NCBI RefSeq assembly: GCF_900156025.1
Contig: NZ_FTMO01000002.1
Span: forward strand, 248,001 to 312,000
DNA: 64,000 nucleotides
DNA from: Allobosea sp. TND4EK4
GTDB lineage: Bacteria > Pseudomonadota > Alphaproteobacteria > Rhizobiales > Beijerinckiaceae
Direction: 5' to 3'
The position numbers and the translations under genes were made by a program. The notes below the pieces were generated by a model. It was not told where the DNA came from and made no database searches. It saw only the letters and a list, made by a program, of their open reading frames with translations. Positions 58,113 through 63,946 of this stretch are shown piece by piece; within the stretch, counting starts at the first letter, position 1, and each line of letters starts with the position of its first letter.

Positions 58113-59348
58113 TCAGGCTCCGCGCAGGGCGATCAGCTCGACATCGATCGTCTTGGCCCGGAAGCCGGCCTCGCAATAGCAGAGATAGAATTCCCACAAC
58201 CGCCGGAACGCGTCGTCGAAGCCCAGCGGCGCGATCTCGTGCCAACGTTCATGGAAGCGGCGGCGCCATTCCTTGAGGGTGTGGGCATAGCTCTCGCCGA
58301 AGCCGAGTTCCTCGGCGACCGCGAACCCTGCGGAGGCGGCCTGGCGGCGCAAGGCGGCCACGGACGGCAGGCAGCCGCCGGGGAAGATGTAGCGCTGGAT
58401 GAAGTCGGTACCCTGCTGGTAGCTCTCGAAGATCGCATCCTCGATCGTGATCGCCTGCAGCACCACCCGTCCGCCCGGCTTCAGCGATCGCGCCAGCGTG
58501 GCGAAATAGGACGGCCAATAGGCACGGCCGACCGCCTCGATCATCTCGATCGAGACGATGCGGTCGAACTCGCCGGTGATGTCGCGATAATCCTGCAGCC
58601 GCAGCTCGACCTGCCTGCTCAGCCCCGCCGCATCGACGCGGCTTTGCGCGGCTTCGAGCTGGGCGGGCGACAGCGTGATGGCCGTCACCCGGCAACCTTC
58701 GCGCGCGAGCCGCTCGGCCAGTGCTCCCCAGCCGCAACCGATCTCCAGGACATGCTCGCCCCCGGACAGGTCGAGCATCGCGACGATCCTGTCGAGCCTC
58801 CTCTGCTGGGCGATCTCGAGCGTCTCGGCCGGGTGCGCGTAGAGCGCCGAGGAATACATCATGCTCTCGTCGAGCCAGCGGCGGTAGAAGTCGTTGCCGA
58901 GGTCGTAATGCGCCGTGATGTTGCGGCGGCTTCCCTTGCGGGTGTTGGCGTTGAGCAGGTGCCTCGTGCGGTTGAGCAGGCGAGCGGGCCAGCTGCCGGA
59001 GACGAGTTCGCGCAAGGTAGCGTCGTTCCGCGCGCCGAGCTCGATCAGGGCGGTGAGATCGGGCGTTTGGAGATCGCCGTCGCGATAGGCTTCGGCGAGG
59101 CCGATATCGCCATCGATCAGGAGCCGGCGTATCGAGCGCCAGTTGCGCAGGATCAGGGTCGCCTGCGGGCCGGGCGCGGCGGGGCCGCTGCACAGGCGCT
59201 CGCCATCCGGCGTGAAGATCGTCAGCTGGCCGATCGCGATGCGCGACAGCAACCGGCGCAGGAACCAGCGTGAGAGGCTGAGGCCGCGCGGCAACGCGAA
59301 CTCCTGTGCGGCCAAGCGGAGGGGGCGGTCGGTTTCGGGCCGGCTCAT
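58113..59348 (-). CDS. Cyclopropane-fatty-acyl-phospholipid synthase family methyltransferase
   Basis: A 411-residue CFA-synthase fold enzyme. The N-terminal domain (about 1-120) precedes the SAM-binding domain: ITAHYDLGNDFYRRWLDESM (about 140-159), SAM loop VLEIGCGWGALAERLAREGC (about 193-212), SIEMIEAVGRAYWPSYFATL and the late QRYIFPGGCLPSV. It methylates unsaturated acyl chains of membrane phospholipids. The ATG overlaps the DUF1365 stop by ATGA. With the DUF1365 and FAD genes it forms the operon that elsewhere accompanies rpoE-chrR; related loci make cyclopropane or furan fatty acids. Confidence 0.93.
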   Translation of the reverse strand: MSRPETDRPLRLAAQEFALPRGLSLSRWFLRRLLSRIAIGQLTIFTPDGERLCSGPAAPGPQATLILRNWRSIRRLLIDGDIGLAEAYRDGDLQTPDLTALIELGARNDATLRELVSGSWPARLLNRTRHLLNANTRKGSRRNITAHYDLGNDFYRRWLDESMMYSSALYAHPAETLEIAQQRRLDRIVAMLDLSGGEHVLEIGCGWGALAERLAREGCRVTAITLSPAQLEAAQSRVDAAGLSRQVELRLQDYRDITGEFDRIVSIEMIEAVGRAYWPSYFATLARSLKPGGRVVLQAITIEDAIFESYQQGTDFIQRYIFPGGCLPSVAALRRQAASAGFAVAEELGFGESYAHTLKEWRRRFHERWHEIAPLGFDDAFRRLWEFYLCYCEAGFRAKTIDVELIALRGA

Positions 59349-60148
59349 GGCTGCAACGGTCCTTTCGCATGGGGTGCCGCGGCGCTGCCGAGGGTGAAGC
59401 CGCGGGCCGGCGCTGCCGGATGAGGCCGCCAGCGGATCCGCTTCGCCAGCAGCCGCACGGCGTGCCAGTGAATGGCGGCAGTCACCTTGAGGGTGAGGAG
59501 CGGATGCGTGACCAGCAGGCGCAGCAGCGCGGTATCGCTCAGGGCCACCCGTTCGCCGCTCAGAACAGCCGCGATCATGCGGCCTTCGCCGTCCTGGGCG
59601 TCGATGGCGATGGAGACACGCGCGTCGGGCGGCGTGACCGTGAAGGCGTAGCGCATGTCGAGTCCCATGAAGGGCGAGACATGGAAGACCTTCCCGGCCT
59701 CCTGCCGCAGCACACCGCCGTCGAGGACGGCCGGAGCGACATAGCTGTGGACCTCGCCGAAGGTGTTGTGCACCTCGTAGACGGTCGCGCACAGGCTGCC
59801 GTCGCGGCGGTAGCAGAAATACGTGCTGAGCGGGTTGAAGGCATAGCCGAGGATGCGCGGCATGGTCAGCAGCCGGATCGGCCCGCCATCATGCGCGATC
59901 CCGGCCTCGGCCAGCATCGCCTCGACCTGCGGCCGCAGCGGCTTCCCGCTGCGGTCCCCGTAATCCGCATCGCGGAAGCTGTAGAGGTTGAAGCGGTCGC
60001 GCGAGAACAGCCTGAGCTCGCCCGCGAGCCCGTCGATCTCGTCGAGGTCGAGCAGCGTCCAGAACACGCGGTAGGACAATGCATGGGGCCGGGGCCGGAA
60101 GCGGTGGTGTCGCACCCGGCCGACATAGAGGGCGGAACGCTCTTTCAC
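59345..60148 (-). CDS. DUF1365 family protein
   Basis: A 267-residue cytoplasmic protein. Pattern: RSALYVGRVRHHRFRPRPHA, then FNPLSTYFCYRRDGSLCATV (about 101-120), VEVHNTFGE-like YEVHNTFGEVHSYV and FHVSPFMGLDMRYAFTV. The family is almost always next to a CFA-synthase-like gene and an FAD amine oxidoreductase; its reaction is unknown and lipid modification is inferred. GTG start at 60148 overlaps the FAD gene stop; it overlaps the Cfa start by 4 bp. Confidence 0.9.
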   Translation of the reverse strand: MKERSALYVGRVRHHRFRPRPHALSYRVFWTLLDLDEIDGLAGELRLFSRDRFNLYSFRDADYGDRSGKPLRPQVEAMLAEAGIAHDGGPIRLLTMPRILGYAFNPLSTYFCYRRDGSLCATVYEVHNTFGEVHSYVAPAVLDGGVLRQEAGKVFHVSPFMGLDMRYAFTVTPPDARVSIAIDAQDGEGRMIAAVLSGERVALSDTALLRLLVTHPLLTLKVTAAIHWHAVRLLAKRIRWRPHPAAPARGFTLGSAAAPHAKGPLQP

Positions 60149-61485
60149 GCAGCCCGCTCCAGCGGCAGCGAGGCCGGAATGCGTCCCGACTCGTCGCGCA
60201 CCTGCCAGGGCCTCCGCACGCCGCCGAGCGCTTCGGCGACGGCAAGACCGGCCTGCAGGCCATCCTCATGGAAGCCCGAGCCGAAATAGGCGCCGCAGAA
60301 CCAGCTCCGCCGGGCGCCCTGCAGCGACCAGAGGCTTTGCTGCGCGCCGAGTGCGGCGGCGTCGAACAACGGGTGCTCGTACATCTCCTCATGCAGGACC
60401 GTCCCGGCGCGCAGGGTCTCCGGCGGGTTGAGGGTGACGAAGAGGGGCTGCGCCTCAGGCAGGCCCTGAAGCCGGTTCATCCAGTAGGTGACCGCGCAGG
60501 CTGCGTCAGGCCGGACCCGCTCGCCGAGATGGTTCCAGCTCGCCCAGGCCCGGCGACGCTTCGGCATCAGCGCCGCATCGCCATGCAGCACGGCCCGGTT
60601 GCGGCTGTAGCGGAAGGCGCCGAGGGCTTCGCTCTCCGCCGTCCCGGGATCGGCCAGCATCGCGAGAGCCTGGTCGGCATGGCAGGCGAAGACGACATGG
60701 TCGAAGCTCTCGCTCCAGCCTTCGCCGGTCAGCACGACGTCGTTGGGCCCGCGCCGGACCTGCCGCACCGGGGCGGCCGTTCTGGCTTCGCCGGAGAAAG
60801 CCGCGCGCAGCTTCTGCACATAGACATCGCTGCCACCGCTCACTGTTCGCCAGACCGGCCTGTCGGTGAGCTTGAGCAGCCCGTGATTGTGATGGAAGCG
60901 GAGGAAGGCGGCGGCCGGATAGGACAGGATTTCCGCGCAAGGCGCCGACCAGATCGCGGCGGCCATCGGCAGGAGATGATCGTCGCGGAACGCCTCGCCA
61001 TAGCCGCCGGCGGCGAGATAATCACCGAGCGAAAGACCTGGGGCGACGTCGGCGGCCGCATCGCGGGAGGCGTTGCGATAGAAGCGGGTGAGGTCCCGCA
61101 GCATCGACCAGAAGCGCGGGCGCACCAGATTGCCGCGTTGGGCGAAGAGACCATCCAGGCTGGTGCCGCTATATTCGAGCTGCCCCGCGTCGAGCGAGAC
61201 GGCGAAGGACATCTCCGTCGGCTGCGTCGCGACGCCGAGATGCTCCATCAGCGCGGCGAAGTTCGGATAGGTCGACTCGTTATAGACGATGAAGCCCGTA
61301 TCGACCGGGGTTTCCCCGGCAGGCCCGGAGATGCGTACGGTGTTCGCGTGCCCGCCGAGGCGGGGCGCCGCCTCGAACAGCACGACCTCATGCGCCTGTC
61401 CCAGAAGCCATGCGGCCGAGAGACCCGAGATACCGGCGCCGATCACGGCGATCCTCATCGGCCTGTACTGCGCTCGCCCCATCAT
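60145..61485 (-). CDS. FAD-dependent amine oxidase family oxidoreductase
   Basis: About 446 residues. The FAD dinucleotide motif is IAVIGAGISGLSAAWLLGQA (about 12-31), followed by RLGGHANTVRI, DTGFIVYNESTYPNF and a C-terminal FCGAYFGSGFHEDGLQAGLA that closes the FAD site. It is a flavin amine oxidase-like or desaturase-like enzyme, likely acting on lipids with its operon partners. The start is uncertain: ATG 61485 follows GAGAGCGG, whereas the ATG at 61503 would lie at or before the predicted transcript start; ATG 61458 is also possible. First gene of the operon with DUF1365 and Cfa. Confidence 0.9.
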   Translation of the reverse strand: MMGRAQYRPMRIAVIGAGISGLSAAWLLGQAHEVVLFEAAPRLGGHANTVRISGPAGETPVDTGFIVYNESTYPNFAALMEHLGVATQPTEMSFAVSLDAGQLEYSGTSLDGLFAQRGNLVRPRFWSMLRDLTRFYRNASRDAAADVAPGLSLGDYLAAGGYGEAFRDDHLLPMAAAIWSAPCAEILSYPAAAFLRFHHNHGLLKLTDRPVWRTVSGGSDVYVQKLRAAFSGEARTAAPVRQVRRGPNDVVLTGEGWSESFDHVVFACHADQALAMLADPGTAESEALGAFRYSRNRAVLHGDAALMPKRRRAWASWNHLGERVRPDAACAVTYWMNRLQGLPEAQPLFVTLNPPETLRAGTVLHEEMYEHPLFDAAALGAQQSLWSLQGARRSWFCGAYFGSGFHEDGLQAGLAVAEALGGVRRPWQVRDESGRIPASLPLERAA

Positions 61486-61509
61486 CCGCTCTCGATTGTC
61501 CATGTCGGC

Positions 61510-61537
61510 TATACGCGGGGCGCGTCGGACTGGATTT
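61510..61537 (-). promoter_or_regulatory. Candidate RpoE-type ECF promoter of the FAD-DUF1365-Cfa operon
   Basis: On the minus strand: AAATCC (61537-61532), 16 bases, then CGTATA (61515-61510). The spacing between ATCC and CGTAT is identical to that ahead of rpoE (62672-62699). It lies just upstream of the FAD gene. Weaker -35 (AAATCC rather than TGATCC). Confidence 0.65.
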
Positions 61538-61644
61538 GTCTCGCGGGCCAACAAAACCGTGGATCCCGGTGACCCGCCCCCGGCTTTCCTGCGTAACCGA
61601 AGAAGCCCGCTTTCCGGTAAGGGCCTGCCGCGGAGACATGGCAC

Positions 61645-62229
61645 ATGAAGCGTCTGACAGCGGCGATCGGCGCCTATGCGGCACATCGCGATCCGCGGGC
61701 CGCCATCGCCAACACCGTCGCGCTGGTCATCGTCTCGAACCAGCCCTTCTATCCGCTCTATCTGTATTGGGCGGTCTCGCCGGCCATCGCGCCGTCCTAC
61801 CTCACATTCCTGTCGACGCCTCTCTTTTCCGCCGTTCCACTCGCCATGCGGCGAAGCCCGGTTCTCGGCCGCTCGCTGCTTGTCCTGGCCGGGATCGGCA
61901 ACACTTTGCTCTGCCGGGCCGCCTTCGGTCCCGGTTCTGGGGTCGAGGTCTTCCTGTTCCCCTGCATCATGCTGGCAATGCTGCTGTTCCGGCGCTCCGA
62001 GCGCGGCTTGGCCATCGCTTTCACGGCGCTCGGCTTCGGCGCCTGTCTGCTGCCGGCCTCGCTGCTGGGGGCGCCGCTTCATGTCTATCAGCCGGCGGAA
62101 TACGTGGCCTTGCAGCGCCTGAACTTTCTGAGCGCGGCCTCGCTGACCGCACTGATCGGCTGGCTCTTCGTCACCCGGCCCGGCACGAATTCGCCTCCGG
62201 ACGAAACCGACCGGACCACCGGAGCGTAG
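61645..62229 (+). CDS. Hypothetical multi-pass membrane protein
   Basis: A 194-residue protein with about five hydrophobic segments (about 20-45, 52-68, 77-90, 103-118, 120-142 and a last at 155-175) and a short charged tail. It has no recognised family signature; it resembles bare membrane-sensor modules without the output domain. It begins 159 bp from the divergent FAD gene and is followed 30 bp later by the DUF2147 gene, so co-transcription is possible. No ECF-like element with N16 spacing was found ahead of it. Confidence 0.65.
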   Translation: MKRLTAAIGAYAAHRDPRAAIANTVALVIVSNQPFYPLYLYWAVSPAIAPSYLTFLSTPLFSAVPLAMRRSPVLGRSLLVLAGIGNTLLCRAAFGPGSGVEVFLFPCIMLAMLLFRRSERGLAIAFTALGFGACLLPASLLGAPLHVYQPAEYVALQRLNFLSAASLTALIGWLFVTRPGTNSPPDETDRTTGA

Positions 62230-62671: not shown

Positions 62672-62699
62672 TGATCCGACCTGACGAGATCCGCGTATC
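62672..62699 (+). promoter_or_regulatory. Candidate autoregulated ECF promoter of rpoE-chrR
   Basis: TGATCC (62672-62677), 16 bases, CGTATC (62694-62699). The -35 TGATCC matches the known consensus for RpoE of the ChrR-controlled ECF11 group. The transcript would begin near 62706, so the annotated start further downstream gives a normal leader. Confidence 0.75.
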
Positions 62700-62756
62700 T
62701 GTCCTATGGTTCCCGCACTCGCCCTGAATGTCGATGGGATGCGCAAGGCGAGAGCC

Positions 62757-63326
62757 ATGGTGCAGAGAGGCCGGTCCGTCGTCTTGTTCGACCCCAATCG
62801 ATTGATAGCCGCCATCGCCCGCTCGGGCGACAGGCAGGCTTTTGCCGAGCTGTTCGACCATTTCGCGCCGCGCGTGAAGGGACTGCTGATGCGCGGCGGG
62901 GCCTCGGCTGAGCTCGCCGAGGAGGTCGCTCAGGAGGCGCTGCTGGCGGTGTGGCGAAAGGCGGCCCTCTTCGATCCGACAAAAGCCAGTGCCTCGACCT
63001 GGATCGCCACGATCGCGCGCAACCTGCGCATCGACATCGCCCGCCGCGAGACACGCTCGCGCCTGTCGCAAGTTTACGAGATTTTGGATGAAGAAGACCC
63101 CGAACGCCCCGATGATGTGCTGTCCGGCGCCGAGCGCGAGGCGCGCGTGCGTGCCGCGATGAACCATCTTTCGCCCGATCAATACCGCGTGGTCGAGCTC
63201 GCCTTTCTGGAAGGCTTCAGCCACCAGGATGTCGCAAAGCGTCTGGCCATTCCGCTGGGAACCGTGAAATCCCGCTTGAGGCTGGCGCTTTCGCATCTGC
63301 GCGGCCGGCTGGAGGATTTGCGATGA
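62757..63326 (+). CDS. rpoE: ECF sigma factor, RpoE (ChrR-partner type)
   Basis: A 189-residue sigma-70 family ECF protein. Region 2 (about 22-90) has RQAFAELFDHFAPRVKGLLM and ASTWIATIARNLRIDIARRE. Region 4 (about 130-185) has YRVVELAFLEGFSHQDVAKR followed by LAIPLGTVKSRLRLALSHLR. The ATG at 62757 is preferred because AAGGCGAG precedes it and upstream ATGs at 62706 and 62739 fall at or near the predicted transcript start. Overlaps chrR by ATGA. In Rhodobacter this pair responds to singlet oxygen; the same role is inferred. Confidence 0.93.
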   Translation: MVQRGRSVVLFDPNRLIAAIARSGDRQAFAELFDHFAPRVKGLLMRGGASAELAEEVAQEALLAVWRKAALFDPTKASASTWIATIARNLRIDIARRETRSRLSQVYEILDEEDPERPDDVLSGAEREARVRAAMNHLSPDQYRVVELAFLEGFSHQDVAKRLAIPLGTVKSRLRLALSHLRGRLEDLR

Positions 63327-63946
63327 GCGTCGTCCATCGCCCCTCGGACGAAACGCTCGCCGCCTTCGCGGGCGGGCAGCTCGATGAAGGGCTGGCCGTG
63401 GTCGTGGCCTGCCATGTCGCCGCCGATCGCCGCAGCCGCGAGCGCGTGCACGAGCTCGAGGCCGTGCAGGGCGCCTTGCTGGACCGGGTCGAGCCCGTGC
63501 CGATGACGGCCGGGCCGCCGGATCCGGAGCACAGGACGCCGGCCGGGCCTCACGATCCGGCAGGTTTGCCCACCGAGCCGGAAATGCCGGCGGTCCTGCG
63601 CCCCTATGGCCTCGGCCCGTGGCGGCCGATCGGCATCCGCATCGCCATGCGGCGCGTCGACGTCCCCCGCGCCGAGGCGCGCGTCTTCATGCTGCGCGCC
63701 GGGCCCGGCATCGCCCTGCCGCACCACAAGCACACCGGGTTCGAATGGACCACGATCCTCTCCGGCGCCTATGAGCATGAATATGGACGCTACGCGGCCG
63801 GCGATTTCGACGAGGCCGATGCGGAGCATGTGCATACGCCGCGCGTCGATCCCGTCGAAGGATGCACCTGCATCGTCGCGATGACCGGCGGCGTGCAGTT
63901 GCAGGGCTGGCTTGGCCGGCTGCTGCAACCGCTGGTGCGGTTTTGA
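63323..63946 (+). CDS. chrR: ChrR-family anti-sigma factor with altered N-terminal zinc site
   Basis: A 207-residue anti-sigma factor. The N-terminal anti-sigma domain (about 1-80) begins HRPSDETLAAFAGGQLDEG. The C-terminal cupin (about 95-200) has zinc-type ligands in LPHHKHTGFEWTTILSG and HVHTP. Of the four residues that bind zinc in the Rhodobacter anti-sigma domain, His5 and His31 remain but positions 35 and 38 are Asp and Ser (ACHVAADRRSRE). It may bind zinc differently or not at all in that domain. The ATGA overlap with rpoE implies coupled production. Confidence 0.92.
   Translation: MSVVHRPSDETLAAFAGGQLDEGLAVVVACHVAADRRSRERVHELEAVQGALLDRVEPVPMTAGPPDPEHRTPAGPHDPAGLPTEPEMPAVLRPYGLGPWRPIGIRIAMRRVDVPRAEARVFMLRAGPGIALPHHKHTGFEWTTILSGAYEHEYGRYAAGDFDEADAEHVHTPRVDPVEGCTCIVAMTGGVQLQGWLGRLLQPLVRF

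Follow-up and report, generated by a model that had tools for sequence, protein, structure and literature searches.

Loss of the zinc site from the anti-sigma domain of a ChrR-family protein in the Bosea lineage and in other alphaproteobacteria

Results and Discussion

Genes and features of the locus

The 64,000-nucleotide stretch of Allobosea sp. TND4EK4 DNA analysed here (the window) carries an ECF sigma factor gene followed directly by a chrR gene, and a divergent group of genes on the opposite strand:

58113..61593, minus strand: divergent gene group (Pfam), comprising the next three entries
58113 to about 59345, minus strand: cyclopropane-fatty-acid-synthase-like CMAS gene (CMAS-type methyltransferase; Pfam)
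59345-60148, minus strand: DUF1365 gene (Pfam)
60145-61593, minus strand: flavin amine oxidase gene (Pfam)
62672..62697, plus strand: sigma-E-type promoter TGATCC-N16-CGTA, the sole exact match to TGATCC-N14-19-CGTA in the window
62706..63326, plus strand: ECF sigma factor gene (Sigma70_r2 and r4_2; PDB 2q1z_A, R. sphaeroides SigE, E 1.4e-38)
63323..63946, plus strand: chrR, ChrR-family anti-sigma factor, 207 aa, ATG start (matches to TIGR02451 and PDB 2z2s_B)
63323..63487, plus strand: anti-sigma domain, about residues 1-55 (AlphaFold2 model of residues 1-70 and alignment with 2z2s)
63623..63880, plus strand: cupin domain, ChrR cupin-like PF12973, residues about 101-186 (Pfam, 46.4 bits against a cut-off of 27, residues 99-186)

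The chrR product scores 148.7 bits against the TIGR02451 ChrR model (cut-off 124.5) over residues 5-206, and the family assignment made in the initial annotation is therefore borne out over the whole length of the protein; against the ChrR equivalog model of NCBIfam (NF051881) it reaches 180.6 bits of the 300 required. Among solved structures, the chains 2z2s and 2q1z of R. sphaeroides ChrR are nearest (2z2s_B, E 3.7e-21). The chrR ATG and the stop of the sigma gene share four bases (ATGA), and the closest PDB match of the sigma factor is SigE, so that a sigma gene of the ECF11 kind lies beside chrR, as judged from overlap and structure match. The window gene is a real, intact gene for a ChrR-type anti-sigma factor. 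A search of the window genome for ChrR returned this full protein and, at E 0.007, a single weak match restricted to residues 69-142 and interrupted by a stop. A second ChrR that does the zinc-dependent job elsewhere in the genome was considered and rejected, there being one TIGR02451 match at E 1e-5 (G000). The genome also holds a second, less similar ECF sigma factor (33%).

Fifteen related loci came from named genomes, of which 12 are Bosea, one is assigned to Boseaceae and two carry an order name only. In phylogenies, the window protein and 20 relatives (L003-L022) form a clade, hereafter the Bosea clade, with support of 100 in the full-length tree and 99 in a tree made from the cupin alone. 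The system is patchy within the genus of the window: among ten genomes listed (G000, G011, G052, G084, G110, G132, G148, G163, G176 and G189), four have a ChrR of the Bosea type, two have an unlinked kind described below, and four give no match at E 1e-5.

The R. sphaeroides sigma-E promoter contains TGATCC, and a promoter of this type precedes the sigma gene of the window. When the whole window is shuffled, 22 of 100 shuffles yield at least one match to TGATCC-N14-19-CGTA, so the weight of the promoter lies in its constancy across the clade, where TGATC[CT]-N16-CGTA stands ahead of the sigma gene in all 21 members; its offset is identical in 20 of them, and in L022 it lies 12 bases farther upstream. 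Across the wider sample (described below), TGATC[CT]-N14-18-CGTA occurs upstream of 43 of 52 sigma genes linked to zinc-less ChrR and 118 of 170 linked to site-bearing ChrR, against 0.23% of shuffles; the span surveyed ran from 400 bases upstream of the sigma match to 30 bases into it. A search for TGATCC-N14-19-TAAGA gave no match. The -10-like CGTATC ends a few bases ahead of the sigma ATG at 62706, and the SigE match starts at residue 33; a leaderless sigma mRNA is possible, as is a true sigma start further in.

Together with DUF1295 and DUF2177 genes on the downstream side (Pfam; L281), the divergent group gives the locus a neighbourhood reminiscent of the furan-fatty-acid genes in the R. 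sphaeroides regulon. A 2019 review counts such genes among the core members of the regulon and describes them as required for turnover of ChrR (PMC6852236). A sigma-E promoter for the divergent fatty-acid operon was sought and rejected: there is no exact match, and none on the minus strand with one mismatch. One-mismatch matches number three in the window against 2.56 expected by chance, and one of them (TGACCC-N16-CGTA, 61570-61595) lies ahead of a MASE7-like gene at 61645.

Three of the four zinc ligands are replaced

In R. sphaeroides ChrR, the zinc of the anti-sigma domain is held by His6, His31, Cys35 and Cys38 (PMC6852236), and work with a model peptide indicates that of the N-terminal His-His pair the second histidine alone coordinates zinc (PMC6432622). 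We mapped these positions by aligning the window protein with 2z2s and 2q1z, an alignment that is gapless across the anti-sigma domain. The corresponding codons are as follows (counts are for the 21 members of the Bosea clade unless otherwise given):

63338..63340, plus strand: codon 6, Arg6 in place of zinc ligand His6; Arg in 19, His in 1, Phe in 1
63410..63412, plus strand: codon 30, Cys30, variable; Cys in 12, Ala in 7, Thr in 1, Ile in 1
63413..63415, plus strand: codon 31, His31, the sole remaining ligand of the zinc site; His in 21, and in 96 of 105 zinc-less proteins
63425..63427, plus strand: codon 35, Asp35 in place of zinc ligand Cys35; Asp in 17, Asn in 3, Glu in 1
63434..63436, plus strand: codon 38, Ser38 in place of zinc ligand Cys38; Ser in 21

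By this alignment, the His-His-Cys-Cys (HHCC) site has lost three of its four ligands, with His31 alone left. The initial annotation had placed Asp35 and Ser38 at the positions of the zinc cysteines, which the gapless alignment confirms. It had also listed His5, His31 and the cupin ligands as retained: the latter two hold, and His5 is indeed present, yet it is not a ligand. The count of losses is thus three rather than two, because the true N-terminal ligand, His6, is Arg6 in the window. His5 lies one residue off, and by spacing alone it could still pass for the ligand; the gapless alignment is what excludes it. The suggestion that Cys30 may matter fares worse; as a substitute ligand it is rejected, since it is a cysteine in a mere 12 of the 21 clade members.

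The motif that defines the zinc-binding anti-sigma (ZAS) class, H-x3-C-x2-C, reads His31, Asp35 and Ser38 in the window protein, and at the position of the N-terminal His or Cys ligand, 24-25 residues ahead of the motif histidine, Arg6 aligns to His6. The protein is accordingly a ChrR by family that falls outside the ZAS class by its defining motif. The cupin site, by comparison, is complete. Its ligands His135, His137, Glu141 and His171 are intact and correspond to the cupin zinc ligands His141, His143, Glu147 and His177 of R. sphaeroides ChrR (PMC6852236).

The domain may keep the fold of a class I anti-sigma domain, a bundle of three helices with a fourth helix added, of which the first three are covered by our model. 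An AlphaFold2 model of residues 1-70 (mean pLDDT 77.1) has helices at 9-16, 22-34 and 36-55, with pLDDT values of 56, 67, 79, 92, 94, 87 and 64 in successive ten-residue blocks from residue 1; such models contain no zinc and say nothing on stability. The best match of the domain model is RsiW (Z 4.8, 66 residues, rmsd 5.7), with an unrelated C. elegans chain close behind (Z 4.3), and 2z2s is absent among the seven chains aligned to it. The full-length model is poor (pLDDT 51.3): Foldseek places 2q1z first (E 9.2e-06), but with an rmsd of 20.6, and the match to RslA is weak (49 columns, E 1.6). Asp, Asn or Ser commonly caps helices, and in the model Asp35 is predicted to stand just ahead of helix 3, with Ser38 in the first turn of that helix, so Asp35 likely caps helix 3. 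That Arg6, Glu33 and Asp35 form a polar cluster in place of zinc is a guess; Glu33 is found in 20 of the 21 clade members, the window itself having Ala33.

Conservation and selection in the Bosea clade

Both zinc cysteines are missing from all 21 members of the Bosea clade, as the alignment of related ChrR proteins proposed with the initial annotation brings out. The loss of the zinc site is fixed in this clade and is not a chance feature of one genome. Six residues of the domain (L12, F15, G18, L20, H31 and S38) are invariant across the clade, and His5 is present in 20 members. Individual members differ at the remaining positions: L013 combines His6, His31 and Asp35, and L022 has Gln5, Phe6 and Asn35, which of the ligands leaves His31 alone.

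Within the clade, residues 1-55 have a dN/dS of 0.185 (199 pairs), against 0.536 in the linker and 0.106 in the cupin; these values derive from pairwise counts over unsaturated pairs only, synonymous changes being near saturation throughout. In four small site-bearing groups, the anti-sigma domain gives values of 0.119-0.192, three of which rest on 2-6 pairs. The clade value is like those of site-bearing groups; the anti-sigma domain is under purifying selection and is not decaying. The nearest site-bearing protein (L119) is 67% identical to the window domain across 51 positions, and apart from its ligands the domain is ordinary in sequence.

Distribution of the zinc site among relatives

We assembled a non-random sample of 277 distinct proteins: the window protein, the 15 first loci, 69 from a search of the family, 90 from a search of the order, and the rest from a search of the phylum. 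From the family search, 72 of 98 listed places were taken in, the other 26 being weaker or partial matches, some of them full-length. The 90 from the order comprise, among the matches listed, the best 30 and 60 chosen for family spread and lower scores. The phylum search contributed every full-length match and one shortened one (L279). The alignment holds 278 rows (one of them a duplicate, L280, identical to L091) plus the R. sphaeroides reference. One protein with an overlong frame (L187) was kept outside the alignment and read by hand as Gln/His/Lys/Thr, that is, zinc-less.

The site is present in 172 proteins (170 with the full HHCC, one with CHCC and one cut short at its start) and absent from 105, so its loss is not peculiar to the window genome. 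An alignment-free test agrees in every row: all 173 scored as site-bearing (one a duplicate) contain H-x3-C-x2-C, and none of the 105 other proteins does. Cysteines that had simply shifted, which would have undone the original observation, are not found, as none of the 105 zinc-less proteins has a CxxC in its first 70 residues. The cupin ligands present a different picture: all 277 distinct proteins have His-His-Glu-His, as does the R. sphaeroides reference. This count applies to proteins retrieved with ChrR queries, in which the cupin contributes to the score, partial cupin-only matches lying outside it.

The phylum-search set comprises 110 proteins, 79 with the site and 31 (L187 among them) without. 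Every one of the 47 that belong to other classes than the window keeps it, and those from within the class are divided between 32 with and 31 without (L187 included). In this sample, loss is therefore confined to the Alphaproteobacteria. A sigma gene stands directly upstream of chrR in 170 of 172 site-bearing cases, in 52 of 105 zinc-less cases and in 21 of 21 in the Bosea clade.

The ligands have not gone equally. Of the 105 zinc-less proteins, 96 still have His31, 12 have His6 and eight have Cys35; not one has Cys38. The eight that keep Cys35 without Cys38 fall in two clades, and the reverse combination is not seen in any of the 105. His5 is also frequent where the site is present (134 of 174 rows). 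One protein outside the Bosea clade (L212) has the same Arg6, His31, Asp35 and Ser38, which hints at convergence on Asp35 and Ser38. Family f60, in which L199 (HHSA), L205 (HHSA), L211 (HHNA) and L220 (QHSV) stand beside 17 site-bearing relatives, is a place to catch loss in progress.

The site was lost more than once

Phylogenies were built with the ligand columns excluded, using FastTree for the full-length and cupin-only alignments (279 rows each, including the duplicate L280) and quick maximum likelihood for a set of 68 rows. The minimum number of changes between presence and absence of the site is 12 on the full tree, 13 on the cupin-only tree and 11 on the 68-row tree. Reading all changes as losses gives 13 separate zinc-less clades on the full tree and 17 on the cupin-only tree, of which three and four, respectively, are single rows, and one multi-row clade per tree is poorly supported (52 and 30); these clade counts depend on an arbitrary rooting on one gamma-type row, the gamma-type rows not forming a clade. 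AU tests reject placing all zinc-less rows in one clade (p 9e-9) and placing all sigma-linked zinc-less rows in one clade (p 0.001), and are borderline for uniting Bosea with a group that mostly keeps Cys35 (p 0.047); the groups to be tested were named once the trees had been seen. More than one loss is secure, and several losses are likely.

A second zinc-less kind without a linked sigma factor

Within the same order there is a second kind of zinc-less ChrR-like protein (e.g. L052, L063 and L267), for which none of 53 loci has an ECF match in the fetched stretch; the 53, which include one locus cut by a contig end (L046), are otherwise L050-L086, L158, L168, L171, L173, L175, L258, L267-L272 and L274-L276. 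Like the Bosea ChrR, these proteins have lost the site, have intact cupin ligands and are associated with a TGATC[CT] promoter, TGATC[CT]-N14-18-CGTA standing upstream of the chrR-like gene itself in 50 of 53 cases. His31 is kept in 52 of the 53. Unlike the Bosea ChrR, they have no sigma gene in the fetched stretch, and they stand apart from the Bosea clade in both trees: 51 form one clade in the full tree (support 94), which breaks into five pieces in the cupin-only tree. Eleven genomes with this kind (L284-L294) have as their best ECF sigma one encoded elsewhere and 41-51% identical to that of the window, some of them also holding weaker ECF matches. The 41-51% identical sigma factors are candidates for a partner in trans.

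How a ChrR without the zinc site may work

The window protein resembles R. sphaeroides ChrR (2z2s and 2q1z; ECF11) in its two-domain plan, the gapless alignment of its anti-sigma domain, its cupin ligands, its adjacent ECF sigma gene and its TGATCC-type promoter, and differs from it in having Arg, Asp and Ser at 6, 35 and 38 and in its linker. With the ZAS class (RsrA, RslA and RsiW) it may share a three-helix fold, to go by prediction and by weak model matches to RsiW and RslA, but it is without H-x3-C-x2-C. A further comparison is with RseA and RskA, class I anti-sigma factors of the non-zinc type. These are membrane proteins from other ECF groups and are not known to have a ChrR cupin; the window protein, unlike these, is by sequence of the ChrR lineage. 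The fold of both is held without zinc (PMC6852236, PMC7406223), and that of RseA is the same as in the zinc-binding domains (PMC6852236).

Experiments on related proteins point in both directions. The SigW/RsiW structure persists zinc-free in an oxidised disulfide form (PMC5358783). In RshA, exchange of CxxC for AxxA leaves SigH binding intact and H49A abolishes it, and the protein prefers a [2Fe-2S] cluster over zinc (PMC3427169). If the spacing of H-x3-C-x2-C is a correct guide, H49 would correspond to His31, which would explain why 96 of the 105 zinc-less proteins still have His31. In V. cholerae, ChrR with C36S (C38 by our mapping) behaves like wild type, and with C33S (C35) it loses control (PMC11976125); that serine is tolerated in place of the second cysteine but not of the first fits the pattern that Cys35 is sometimes kept without Cys38 and never the reverse. 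On the other hand, the R. sphaeroides domain needs its zinc (PMC6852236), a zinc-free model peptide is mostly random coil, and its zinc affinity falls by at least three orders of magnitude when alanine replaces the N-terminal histidine (PMC6432622). Loss of the site should therefore be harmful unless compensated.

On balance, the window protein is probably a working, zinc-independent ChrR in which sensing is borne by the cupin. We infer that the three-helix anti-sigma fold is kept without zinc through packing and polar contacts, with Arg6 and Ser38 filling the former zinc site and Asp35 likely capping helix 3, and that this zinc-free domain binds and silences the adjacent ECF sigma factor. Singlet oxygen or an organic hydroperoxide would then alter the intact cupin metal site, releasing the sigma factor, and the freed sigma factor would transcribe its own operon from TGATCC-N16-CGTA. 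The initial annotation had proposed that the fold is held differently or that release is tuned in another way; retention of the domain, the sigma gene and the promoter without the site fits this.

An alternative that we regard as unlikely, though deserving of attention, is that the signal changed when the site was lost, the zinc thiolates being the singlet-oxygen sensor and the zinc-less proteins responding to peroxide, membrane or other cues. Zinc thiolates react fast with singlet oxygen and have been argued to be the sensor (PMC6432622), but the singlet-oxygen response of R. sphaeroides requires the cupin (PMC6852236) and the Bosea locus lies among fatty-acid-type genes, neither point being decisive. 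A changed signal is compatible with zinc-free binding of the sigma factor, and both can be true together.

It is also conceivable, if rather improbable, that the anti-sigma domain is loose, in which case the sigma factor would be constitutive in part or in full and the protein would be retained for its cupin or as a weak buffer. R. sphaeroides ChrR needs zinc to inhibit sigma-E (Newman 2001, via PMC6852236) and V. cholerae C33S is constitutive (PMC11976125). Against a loose domain stand the selection estimate and the six invariant residues in the Bosea clade, the gene overlap and promoter retained throughout that clade, and the sigma gene adjacent in half of the zinc-less cases (52 of 105).

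A different metal site, in which His5, His31 and Asp35, with water or Ser38, bind zinc or another metal and the domain remains metal-dependent, seems more doubtful still. Residues that could form it are common in the clade (His5 in 20, His31 in 21 and Asp or Glu at 35 in 18 of the 21), and L013 even has His6, His31 and Asp35. However, three members have Asn35, L022 leaves His31 alone, His5 is common in site-bearing proteins as well, and according to the model-peptide study His5 of R. sphaeroides ChrR binds no zinc (PMC6432622). The chance that the observation is an artefact of a frameshift, shifted cysteines or a wrong family is negligible, and we reject it, given that both cysteines are absent from 20 relatives too, that no CxxC lies in the first 70 residues, that inspection of the chrR DNA by eye revealed no frameshift hiding one, and that the family score is full-length.

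Implications for the role of zinc in ChrR

A coevolution study notes that zinc and non-zinc anti-sigma domains are mixed within some groups (PMC7406223), and zinc-less anti-sigma domains as such are on that account already known. Our literature search, which reached few subscription journals, returned no description of zinc-less ChrR proteins. The 2019 review describes the precise role of the anti-sigma zinc in the singlet-oxygen response as unknown (PMC6852236).

A working zinc-independent ChrR in the Bosea clade would be one case of a more general possibility, which we put forward tentatively and with somewhat more doubt than confidence: that zinc in the anti-sigma domain of ChrR is dispensable for holding the sigma factor and for sensing, and has been shed about a dozen times in alphaproteobacteria in a preferred order, the cupin rather than the thiolates being the indispensable sensor. 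The argument for the cupin is that its metal site has not been shed once. A sigma-linked, conserved zinc-less ChrR allows the role of zinc to be studied in natural proteins rather than in crippled mutants. One metal site has been lost repeatedly, and apparently in a set order, next to another that is always kept, which makes the question of how ChrR senses singlet oxygen testable.
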